A stretch of 64,000 nucleotides of DNA. Source: Rhododendron vialii (taxonomy: Eukaryota > Streptophyta > Magnoliopsida > Ericales > Ericaceae). Positions within the stretch are counted from its first letter, which is position 1. Every line of letters begins with the position of its first letter. Position numbers and translations under genes: made by a program. Location of the stretch: positions 2,190,001 through 2,254,000 of the forward strand of contig NC_080569.1 in NCBI RefSeq assembly GCF_030253575.1, given 5' to 3'. Positions 40,836 through 63,279 of this stretch are shown here, piece after piece. The notes beneath the pieces were generated by a model, which ran no database searches, was not told where the DNA came from, and saw only the letters and a program-made list of their open reading frames with translations.

Positions 40836-43800
40836 ATGGGAGTAGTACAATCGGTCATCCTCTTGGCACTAATGCTTCTGTTTCGTCTGAAGGCCGAAGC
40901 TTCACACTGTTCAACTCACGGTGAGTTCGCGCATTTTCTTTCTCATTCTCTGCTGATTGATTTAGTCGTTTTCTGGTACGTCTGTTCTTTCATTTTCTTG
41001 GATATCACGAACTTCATGGAAATACCATATTGGTTAATCCTAGTATGTGGCCTGAACTAACAAAGAGATCACAACAGGCCCCTTCGATGGAATTTTCTAT
41101 ATGATGATATATATCCGGCGATACTCCACTAGAATATGCTTAATTTTGACACATGTGAATAATTAGGGGTGATAAACAAGCTGAACGAATCGAGCACTTA
41201 GGTTGTTCAAACTTGAATGGAAAACTCAACGAGCTTCAAAACATGTTCAAGTTTAGCTTCTTTATGAGATGAGCCAATCTCAAACGAGTGTGAATCGTGC
41301 CGGACATGAGCCGATGCTCAAGCTTGAATTTTTTATACATCATAATTCATAAGTTGAACGAGTTGAGTAGCAGCTTGTTCAAGTTTTATTTGAAAGCTAA
41401 CAAGCTTCAAAAAGATGTTCAAGTTTGGTTTGTGTATGAAACAACCGGGCTTGAACGAGCTTTTGACGAATGAACACGAGTTCAAACTCGAGTAGCGTGG
41501 TTCAATTATCAGCCCTACACGTGATTTCATAATTTCCATATATTGGATCGGGGGTGGTTTCTGTTCCAACTTCCAAGCGTGCACATGTTCAAGTTTACAG
41601 TGCTAAGTTCTGGTTTTTGAATTTTGGGCGCCTCTGTAGTTCATCTGTTTTAATTGCTAAGTGTAATTTTTTTGAGCACTGTTGCGTCCTATTTTCGGTG
41701 CGTTTTAGTTCTTGTATTCTTAAAAAATTGTTCCATTTTTTTTGTCAAGAGAACAAAATATGACGAGGGATGCATTGAGTTTAGTTGGTTTGGATCACCC
41801 AATCTCATTACTTTCAACTAGTTTATGCTAAAGGGAGTGAATTTTCTTTTCTATGCAGGAGTACCTTTGGTGAGGAACATTGCAGAGCTTCCACAGGATA
41901 ACTATGGGAGGCCTGGTTTGTCTCACATTACTATTGCTGGTTCACTCTTGCATGGCATGAAGGAGGTACGAAAAGCACTCTCTCAAGCATAGTGGTTATT
42001 CATATTCGACGTTCCATTCAGAGTGTGAACCAGTACCAGCCCTGAGCAAAGGCAAGCAATGCATTTGCTTTGAGCCTCCAAAGTTTTATTGCAATGAGGC
42101 CCCCAAAAAATTGCAGTATTCACTAAATATAGGTCTATAGAATTATATTCAGGTCTATAGTATTATATTCATTCAAACTATGCATGTCAAAAATTGAGTA
42201 TAACGAGCATAATTACTACTTTTGCCTCTAAAAATGCAAAAAGAGTGACCTTGAAGTGCTTATTAATAATATGCATAATTTTAAAATTTCATATTATTGA
42301 ATATTAATAGTTTTTCTTTTTGGAATTGCCTTATCTCTTACGTAATCATTTTGCTCGTAAAATGCATAAAGGGCCCATTTTCGTATTTTTGCCTTGGGCC
42401 CCAAAAATGTCAGGGCTGGCCCTGATGCAGACAGAGTTAATACACAAACTTAAGCTGTGTAGTCTTATGGTAATTGTTTGACTTGTCCAACACAGTTACC
42501 TTTTCCTTTGTCCCTCCATATAGTCCTATACAGCCACATCCTGCTAACACCGTCAAATAGAGTGTGAAAGATGTTCTAAGAAATGAGAGCCTGTTTATAT
42601 TTCTGTAAGTTTTGAGATATACTGTCCATTAAGAGTTAGATACCAGAGTATGTGAGAAATGACATAAACTTAGGGTACTTTTTAATAGGACTGCAGAATG
42701 GAATTTTTCTTGGCAGGTTGAGGTATGGCTCCAAACGTTTGCTCCAGGATCCCGCACACCTATCCACAGGCACTCTTGTGAAGAAGTTTTTGTTGTCTTA
42801 AAGGGAAGCGGTACTCTCTATCTCGCCTCGAATTCACATCTAAAATACCCTGGACAGCCACAAGAATTCCCTATTTTCACCAATAGTACATTTCAGATCC
42901 CTGTTAACGATGCTCACCAGGTAGATCTCTATTCCCTTCAGAAATAGGTGCTTTGATTCATTTATCAAGGAGTCTATAGCTATTCAGCATGGTTGATGTG
43001 ATTATTTGTTTTAATTCTTTGTGCTGAATGATGTAAAATAGGTTTGTTGTTCCTCAGAGAGAGAGAGAGAGAGAAACTTTTAGCAAACTTAATCATGTCC
43101 TTTGTACCAAAAAAATTGCAGCTCTCCACGATGCTATTTTAAATGCAGGTCTCCATCTGCACTTAGTTGGAGTTATCAGTATCTATCATTCGGCGTGATT
43201 TTAACCAAAAAGTTCAATGTTGTCTTTAAAAATCCATTTGGAGGTTTTTCTATTTCTTATTGAAGTACATTGATTTGCCTTATCTTGCACTTTTAGGGCT
43301 CAGTGGAGTTGAAAAGGAGCTGTTCATTAGACAGAGAAATTAAGCAAACTTCTGAGGAAACTAAAGCTATCTAAGTACATTTACCTAATATTTCCAGAAA
43401 CCGGTAGCCATTTTCAGTTATACTGGACTAGAGGGTTGTTGGATGGGGAAGAACTGAGACTGAATGAGACTCCAAGAAAAGCATGTGTCGTAGGAAATTG
43501 AGGTAGACGGTGGCAGAATACACCTAATTTTAGTTCTTGGTAGTTGTTAGTATGAAGTTGAGGTAGACGGTGGCAGAATACACCTAATTTTAGTTCTTGT
43601 TAGTTGTTAATCAAGGGTGCTCACTGCTCCGACGGTTAAGATCGGAGACATAAGGAAATAGGTTTTTTACAGGATATCAGGAGACAAACAATGGGCCTCA
43701 ATCCGTGGAATAAAATGGAAACCAAAAGCCTGCATCTAAGAAAAGATAAAATCATAAAAGATGCTTTATTGGCATTGTTGCAACACTAGGGTAATCTACT

Positions 43801-60781: not shown

Positions 60782-63279
60782 TACTATCTAATTACTTTCA
60801 ACTCCTTCAAGGTAAAGGGAGTGAATTTTCTTTTCTATGCAGGAGTACCTTTGGTGAGGAACATTGCCGAGCTTCCGCCAGATAACTATGGAAGGCCTGG
60901 TTTGTCTCACATTACTATTGTTGGTTCCCTCTTGCATGGCATGAAGGAGGTATGGAAAGCACTCTCTCAAGCGCACTTGTTACATATGTTCGACATTCTA
61001 TTCGCCGTACGGAGAAATTCAATACAAGAACTTGAGCTGTGTATTCTTGTAATGACTGCTTCATTGTGCAAGACCATTCCCTTTTTCTCTATCCGTTCAT
61101 AACATTCTGAAAAAGCCACATGCCGCTAACACCTTCAAATAGTGTATAAAGGATGTTCTATGAAATGAGTGCTTGCTAATACCTGTAGTTTTTAAGATAT
61201 AACTACCATTAAGAGTTAGGTACTTGGCAGGTTGAGGTATGGTCGAAACATTTGCTCGAGGATCACACACGCCTATCCATAGGCACTCTTGTGAAGAAGT
61301 TTTTGTTGTCTTAAAGGGGAGTGGTACTCTCTATCTCGCCTCGAATTCACATATAAAATACCCTGGACAACCACAAGAATTCAGTATCTTCGCGAATAGC
61401 ACATTTCATATCCCTGTTAATGATGCTCACCAAGTAGATCTCTCTTCCCTTCAGAACTATGTGCTTTTTCAATTCTCCAGAAGTTTGTAGCAATTCGGCA
61501 TGGTTTGTATGATTATTTGTTCTTAGTCTTTGTGCTAAATAATGTAAGGGTTTGTTGTTCCCATGACAGAACAACTTTTAGTGTTGTTAAATCATGTCCT
61601 TGGTACAAAAAATGCAGCTCTCTACAACACTATTCCAAATGGGGTCTCCATCTGTACTTAAATGGATTTACAAATATGCATAGTTAGCCACAATGTTTAA
61701 AGGAGTGGTGTCCTTTTGTGGAGGTTCTTCTAATTCCTCATCGAAGTAACATCGTCTTATCTTGCACTTTTAGACCTTAGTGGAGCTGAAAAGTAACTGT
61801 TCATTAACCAGGGTAGTTGAGCAAATTTCAGACAGATACTCAAGCTATCTATTTACATTTACCAAATACTTTCAGAAACCAGAAACGGGTAGCCATTTTC
61901 AGTTTCACAGGACTAGAGGACGGTTAGATGGGGAAGAATCAAATCTGAATTATATCCCAAGAAGGCTTGTGTGGAATAAAACTGAGGCAGCCAGTGGCTG
62001 AATACACCTAGCTAACTGCTCTGAGGGCTAATATTAGAGACATGCCTAACTTTAAGCATTATTTACAAAAGCTGCTGCTCTTACTCATGTTCTTGTGAAA
62101 AAGAGCAACAGCAGAAAAACTAAGGAGAAGAAGTTTTGCACGGAATTTCAGGAGACTAACAATGGGCCTCAATCCATGGAATGAAATTGAAAAGAAAAAA
62201 GCGTGGATGTATGAAGGAGAAAAGATAAAACAACAAAAGATGCTTTGTTGCAGCAGTAGGGAATCTACTAGTTGCCTAATACCAGTCTTTGCATATGGAA
62301 AGTGTTTCTCCAAGGATTTGCTAATTACATCTGGTACTTGTTAAGCGTTTGCAACTACTATTTCCACCAGGTCTGGAATACAAATGAAGATGAGGACTTG
62401 CAATTTCTAGTCATTATATCACGTCCTCCAATGAAAGTGTAAGATATACTCTTCTTGCATCATTTTGCATGTTTCAGATTTACCACATTTCATTGTCATG
62501 GTTGCATACAGTATCCTCCGTTTATATTTTTCTTATTTGTTAATCACAAGGCGGTGTACTAAGATGCTGGTAAAACGGCCAGGAGATCAAGTCATTAGAA
62601 TAATTAACCATTGACAAACTAGAGGGTCAAGGGTGAAAAGAAATGAACTTTTTTACATGTTATGTTACTCACTTCAATCACAGAGCTTAACTTCGCCACA
62701 AGATAAACTGTCCAGCTGCGAAGAACTACATTCTCTAATTATGCTTCTCATGCAATCTTCTTAGATGCCGCCATAAGGTGGTTCTCTTGAAAACTTCAAC
62801 TTGTGGTGGAGGGGATCATCTCCAACATTACTGCTCGCTCACTGTACGTTCATATCCAATGAAGCCTAGGGTGGCTTTGTTATGCTATGATATCTCCACA
62901 TCCATCACAATTGTAGCTTTTTTTCTTTGCCGATCAAAAAAAAGGAAAGAAAGACCAAAGTTACAATCCTTCAATCATCTGATGTTGGTCCAAAGGAAAA
63001 TGACAATGGTAGTCAATGAGTCTACTGATGAGGACAATCGATCATTGAAGGACTCTTTCTGCATGAAGAACTTGTTAGAACAATATCTTATAATGTCTGT
63101 GACAATCTATTACTGGAACTTTCTGATGTATCGTGTTTCGCACAAGTAATCACTGCTGATTTTTGCTTTTCAGATTCATATACGACGACTGGTTCATGCC
63201 TCATATTGCTGCCAATTTGAAGTTTCCCATCTATTGGGATGAACAATGTTTTCAAACACCAGCGAAAGATGAGCTTTAG

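Follow-up and report, generated by a model that had tools for sequence, protein, structure and literature searches.

A decaying tandem array of ABP1 in Rhododendron vialii, whose two intact copies lack different defining features

Where AUXIN-BINDING PROTEIN 1 (ABP1) acts, in the endoplasmic reticulum (ER) or as a small secreted pool, and whether it needs to bind auxin, have been argued over for decades. Passages of the literature state that the C-terminal KDEL keeps most ABP1 in the ER and that moss ABP1 is without it (PMC3744040), and that secreted ABP1 works with TMK kinases at apoplastic pH, an auxin-binding-defective allele failing to rescue (PMC10952682). As regards gene number, one ABP1 gene is given for potato DM in part of PMC10380454, and more than one copy for, e.g., maize, rice, poplar and Physcomitrella in a passage of PMC4748827. 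Here we describe an array of four ABP1 copies in Rhododendron vialii, within a stretch of 64,000 nucleotides ("the window") that corresponds to C13:2190001-2254000 of haplotype A. A preliminary description of this DNA held ABP1 to be usually single or low copy, which is fair, although multi-copy ABP1 was thus already on record; R. vialii likewise has more than one copy per genome, and the passage concerned in PMC4748827 makes no mention of a tandem arrangement, of decay or of a split loss of motifs. Searches of the open-licence literature for tandem or duplicated ABP1, KDEL-less ABP1 and Rhododendron ABP1 returned, among the papers listed, no report of such an array, which is weak evidence of its absence. 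The "ABP1" of a paper on R. platypodum stands, in the part concerned, for the name ABP19A, and was hence not counted as ABP1.

The array occupies window positions 40836-63279 on C13, with all four copies on the plus strand, as found by exon-level tblastn and alignments. A six-frame search of the haplotype A genome (532,647,506 bases in 13 contigs) with the Pfam profile Auxin_BP (PF02041) returned 16 matches (16 of 16 candidates scored), all above the family cut-off; 14 of them lie in C13:2231858-2253276 (window 41858-63276), the other two being on C11 and C3, and the best single exon reached 133.9 bits against a cut-off of 21. Wherever exons exist, their order and splice positions are equal in all four copies, and the number of copies, their strand, the outer limits of the array (40836 and 63279) and the matching intron positions that had been reported all agree with these results. 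We find it hardly credible that the array is an assembly artefact or a set of uncollapsed alleles: identity in the six copy pairs is just 76-84% over the aligned unit, which makes the false duplication of one allele by the assembly implausible, there are no ambiguous bases (N) in the window or in the 30 kb to its right, and the assembly, made from HiFi and Hi-C data, has 5 gaps (PMC10338486). The copies are neighbouring paralogues in one orientation, and not a single locus assembled twice. The earlier expectation that more copies may follow did not hold: no ABP1 match with E < 0.2 was obtained when two ABP1 proteins were run against each of the three 10-kb stretches to the right of the window on its own, the sole match (in L010; E 0.20, 23% identity) being at chance level, and outside the array the genome holds, as searched by profile and by DNA, only two ABP1 fragments (on C3 and C11).

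Potato ABP1 has five exons, according to part of PMC10380454, and so do copies 1 and 2, both complete; copy 4 has five exon remnants and copy 3 exons 3-5 only. Copy 1 (40836-44876) has an intact open reading frame (ORF) of 189 amino acids (aa) and copy 2 (47677-50917) one of 190 aa, the introns of both being all GT-AG and their N-termini hydrophobic (by eye only). Copy 3 (56404-58270) is a pseudogene, in which exons 1 and 2 were not found by tblastn or alignment at the array. Copy 4 (59020-63279) has lost its ATG and carries a 1-bp deletion in exon 3, while its zinc and KDEL codons remain; its closest upstream in-frame ATG is directly followed by a stop, no search having been made for a new upstream first exon. 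What had been announced as four genes is thus four copies, two of them intact ORFs and two of them pseudogenes, and the idea of a locally amplified gene whose copies have decayed and changed to differing degrees is borne out by these lesions and ORF states. What the preliminary description missed, and what we find the most interesting, is that each intact copy has lost a defining feature, and not the same one.

The first of these losses concerns the tail of copy 1. Aligned to maize ABP1 (PDB 1LR5/1LRH; E 6.1e-77, residues 31-184), copy 1 has all four zinc ligands, three His and a Glu (H57, H59, E63 and H106), and the pocket residues W44, Q46, T54, P55 and W151 (numbering counted from the 1LR5 alignment) are all aligned as well. 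It differs from the maize protein in its KYEL tail and in a Tyr at F149, the latter as in Arabidopsis. The change from KDEL to KYEL is that of one base, GAT to TAT (Asp to Tyr), found in copy 1 alone within the array, where copies 2, 3 and 4 have KDEL codons; the earlier mention of KDEL-type ends needs this correction for copy 1. Judged by the general K/H-D-E-L motif, KYEL is expected to be a poor ER retrieval signal; among the papers listed in a literature search for it, none contains the word. The ABP1 of mosses (Physcomitrella and Funaria) likewise has no KDEL tail, but this absence is taken as ancestral, in the passage of PMC3744040 concerned, whereas the KYEL of copy 1 is a derived state that arose through one base change, in a single paralogue of an angiosperm.

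Copy 2, conversely, keeps the C-terminal KDEL and has Asn at the position of maize H57, the other three zinc ligands being kept. In the maize numbering, it also has Ile at F149, as do copies 3 and 4, and its residue matching Phe84 of the potato QTF stretch (zinc ligands and pocket residues of potato after PMC10380454) is Leu, that of maize being Ile; these two changes weigh little, because the same Ile is present in copies 3 and 4 and maize itself differs at the Phe84 position. The full-length proteins encoded by copies 1 and 2 matched no chain other than 1LR5. Two Arabidopsis alleles offer a comparison, namely abp1-10, in which a His to Asn change at H106 alters the auxin-binding site (part of PMC4265171), and the auxin-binding-defective ABP1(M2X) (part of PMC10952682); in copy 2 the change is instead natural, and at H57. 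Upstream, the likeness of copy 2 to copy 1 covers only ~29 bp before the ATG, starting at a GA repeat, and no match to copy 1-like DNA was found in the next 2 kb, whereas copy 4 still resembles copy 1 upstream over ~100 columns, at 70%. Since the likeness ends so close to the ATG, the promoter of copy 2 is probably different from that of copy 1.

We think it reasonably likely, from the comparison of the copies, that an ordinary five-exon ABP1 gene was duplicated locally in tandem and then underwent birth-and-death decay, with copy 1 as the working gene and its ER retrieval weakened. This is supported by the full ORFs and eight splice sites kept in each of copies 1 and 2, and by the disabled state of copies 3 and 4, as well as by the single orientation of the copies, the distance of copy 1 from the other three in the tree of intron 2 and exon 3, the purifying constraint on the copy 1 branch, and a mature part of copy 2 that changed at a rate near or above the neutral one. 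Copy 1 would still hold zinc and auxin, and the change to KYEL would let a larger share of its protein exit the ER to the cell surface, the proposed site of action of ABP1 with TMK kinases. Copy 2 would be an ER-retained paralogue, poor at binding zinc and for this reason presumably poor at binding auxin, and heading to a new role or to loss. As copy 1 ends in KYEL, copy 2 has the Asn, and copies 3 and 4 are broken, no gene was found in the haplotype with both an intact zinc site and a KDEL, and ordinary ABP1 seems to be absent from this haplotype, as searched. If KYEL were fixed in the species, the ABP1 of this plant would be secreted for the most part, or the plant would have no ABP1 of the ordinary type. 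The array probably reflects for the most part the usual birth and death of genes, in which a candidate receptor under constraint was amplified and then dismantled; the complementary loss of motifs adds to its interest, in that intact copies without KDEL or without a zinc ligand would be natural variants separating location from auxin binding.

The substitutions bear on the fate of each copy. Pairwise non-synonymous (dN) and synonymous (dS) divergences by the NG86 method (187-189 codons, or 115 where copy 3 is one of the pair) were 0.071 and 0.261 for copies 1 and 4, 0.125 and 0.190 for copies 1 and 2, 0.108 and 0.132 for copies 2 and 4, 0.095 and 0.097 for copies 2 and 3, 0.098 and 0.300 for copies 1 and 3, and 0.070 and 0.151 for copies 3 and 4. 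Assigned to branches over 187 codons (leaving out the 7 sites where copies 1, 2 and 4 all differ), replacement and silent changes number 17 and 14 for copy 1, 29 and 4 for copy 2, and 9 and 10 for copy 4; copy 2 stands apart from copies 1 and 4 taken together (Fisher p 0.0008), and is not significantly different, on its own, from the neutral site ratio (p 0.21). A codon model of copies 1, 2 and 4 gave copy 2 an omega of 2.84 against 0.34 for the rest over the 187 codons (likelihood ratio p 2e-4), and of 3.76 against 0.23 over the 167 codons of the mature part (p 8e-6). The noncoding DNA provides a further yardstick: 82 of 1062 clean columns (7.7%) changed on the copy 2 branch, 135 on that of copy 1 and 69 on that of copy 4, so that the replacement rate of copy 2 (29 over ~439 sites, or 6.6%) is ~0.86 of its noncoding rate, while those of copies 1 and 4 (17 and 9 over ~439 sites) are ~0.3 of their own. 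Finally, at 98 sites identical between Arabidopsis and maize, copy 2 has 16 differences, copy 1 has 6 and copy 4 has 11 (the maize protein being taken from the 1LR5 match, with codons broken by gaps or stops omitted). Taken together, these data point to relaxed or shifted selection on copy 2 and to constraint on copy 1 and also on copy 4, in its case over most of its past.

Could the two intact copies have divided the labour between them, so that the two former roles of ABP1 are now spread over two genes, with copy 1 secreted and binding auxin, and copy 2 resident in the ER, devoid of zinc and selected for a new role? We consider this quite unlikely, although several observations speak for it. 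The only two intact ORFs are those that lost KDEL and a zinc ligand respectively, in a complementary pattern, and copy 2 is free of disabling lesions despite 33 coding substitutions, when a neutral simulation with 33 substitutions left 28% of the runs stop-free; moreover, the 7 clean noncoding indels seen per 82 substitutions predict ~2.8 coding indels in copy 2, with a probability of ~0.06 of finding none. Its omega exceeds 1 at p 0.044 (187 codons) or 0.025 (167 mature codons), and silent changes as few as 4 occur in 3.7% of the stop-free neutral runs. However, these P values are marginal and uncorrected, the omega is driven by the low silent count, and the case is made at the level of sequence, with a single amino-acid change per copy that may be recent or polymorphic; the evidence for positive selection in copy 2 is suggestive only. 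The bolder proposal that this plant has no canonical ABP1, copy 1 being an auxin binder that leaves the ER and copy 2 an ER-held, zinc-incomplete protein positively selected for an auxin-free role, seems to us distinctly improbable. If the roles of the two copies were indeed divided, they would provide a natural separation-of-function test of the place where ABP1 works and of whether binding auxin is its whole function.

At the other extreme, copy 2 might be a young pseudogene and copy 1 the sole functional gene, with a KYEL that retrieves well enough for its function to be unchanged. The closeness of the copy 2 replacement rate to the noncoding rate would fit such a view, as would the fact that two of its neighbours, copies 3 and 4, have decayed, and the very short upstream likeness of copy 2 to copy 1; but the start, stop, frame, KDEL and all splice sites of copy 2 are intact, and we regard this explanation as unlikely, if one to be taken seriously.

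The relations among the copies are not the same in all parts of the unit. In a tree of intron 2 and exon 3, copies 2, 3 and 4 group together (support 90) with copy 1 apart, copies 3 and 4 pair (80), and the pieces on C3 and C11 pair as well (98), whereas in a tree of the whole unit copies 2 and 3 pair instead (74). Sites that unite copies 1 and 4 against 2 and 3 number 20, those for 1 and 2 against 3 and 4 number 16, and those for 1 and 3 against 2 and 4 number 8; exon 5 and the DNA next to it (50803-50970) account for 9 of the 20. The disagreement of the two trees makes some gene conversion or unequal exchange between copies likely. GA/CT microsatellites at 47626-47690, 51313-51381 and 58467-58511 lie at the borders of the duplicated units, and may have helped unequal exchange.

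Several points weigh against the birth-and-death reading with copy 1 as the working gene. The omega above 1 of copy 2 depends on only 4 silent changes and, by the noncoding yardstick, this copy is near neutral, its ratio of ~0.86 leaving room for neutral drift. The copy 4 branch is also constrained, so that this copy was probably lost at a late stage, and copy 1 is not marked as the sole working gene by constraint alone; 8 of the 17 replacements assigned to copy 1 lie within its first 17 codons. The mixed site patterns, hinting at gene conversion, weaken the assignment of changes to branches. Lastly, the whole case is built from comparing sequences, and the weakness of KYEL is deduced rather than observed.

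Of the two ABP1 fragments outside the array, that on C11 (L012 4829-5147) contains the last part of intron 2 and the greater part of exon 3, and bears a premature TAA; that on C3 (L013 4342-5064) comprises the end of exon 2 and parts of intron 2, exon 3 and intron 3, the start of exon 3 being missing. A seeming run across an exon junction raised the idea of a retrocopy on C3, which was ruled out by the intron 2 and intron 3 sequence; as introns are present, both are DNA-level fragments with lesions. Their pairing in the tree suggests one earlier copying event or capture by a transposable element (TE). When the genome was searched at the DNA level with copy 1 (41750-44950), 40 of 52 candidates were scored and at least 56 matches obtained, with the same ABP1 loci as in the profile search; among the matches listed, all those that are not ABP1 fall within query 279-677, at 67-88% identity and on many contigs, and correspond to a dispersed repeat in intron 2 of copy 1 that none of those matches places in another copy of the array.

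Table 1. Exons and other features of the four ABP1 copies (window positions)
Feature	Position	Strand	Basis or remark
Copy 1 exon 1	40836..40920	+	ATG, N-terminal hydrophobic stretch, GT donor
Copy 1 exon 2	41859..41965	+	AG/GT sites
Dispersed repeat, TE-like, ~395 bp, in copy 1 intron 2	42031..42424	.	genome DNA search
Copy 1 exon 3	42717..42920	+	cupin motif, zinc ligands intact
Copy 1 exon 4	43948..44015	+	tblastn/alignment
Copy 1 exon 5	44771..44876	+	KYEL-stop end
Copy 2 exon 1	47677..47764	+	alignment
Copy 2 exon 2	48457..48563	+	tblastn/alignment
Copy 2 exon 3	48956..49159	+	cupin motif, first zinc His is Asn
Copy 2 exon 4	50297..50364	+	tblastn/alignment
Copy 2 exon 5	50812..50917	+	KDEL-stop end
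Copy 3 intron 1 remnant	56404..56547	+	alignment
Copy 3 exon 3, 13-bp and 11-bp deletions	56763..56942	+	alignment
Copy 3 exon 4, insertions	57904..58009	+	alignment
Copy 3 exon 5, 1-bp insertion, KDEL codons kept	58164..58270	+	alignment
Copy 4 exon 1 remnant, lacking its start codon	59020..59104	+	alignment
Copy 4 exon 2	60843..60949	+	tblastn/alignment
Copy 4 exon 3, 1-bp deletion (frameshift)	61231..61433	+	alignment
Copy 4 exon 4	62371..62438	+	tblastn/alignment
Copy 4 exon 5, KDEL codons kept	63174..63279	+	tblastn/alignment

Small duplications are also seen beside two of the copies: a short sequence closely resembling the last part of exon 5, 3' of the copy 1 stop (44876-44945; by eye), and a small tandem copy of flanking DNA 3' of copy 4 (63277-63340 and 63379-63441, within 63277-63441). 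To the right of the window, L009 (two matches) and L011 (one match) share short repeats with it, and these repeats are not ABP1; one repeat is present at window 5276-5519, 16218-16373, 35300-35388 and 45323-45473, and again at L009 4738-4967.

Elsewhere in the window, the minus-strand ORFs at 24171-26309 and 20985-21479 match a PIR2-like helical domain and a C3HC4 RING finger, and are probably parts of one RING E3 ligase gene. A methyl-CpG binding domain with a CW zinc finger (plant MBD protein) is encoded at 32697-33230 on the plus strand, and an ORF of 418 aa with an endonuclease/exonuclease/phosphatase domain at 11978-13231 on the minus strand.

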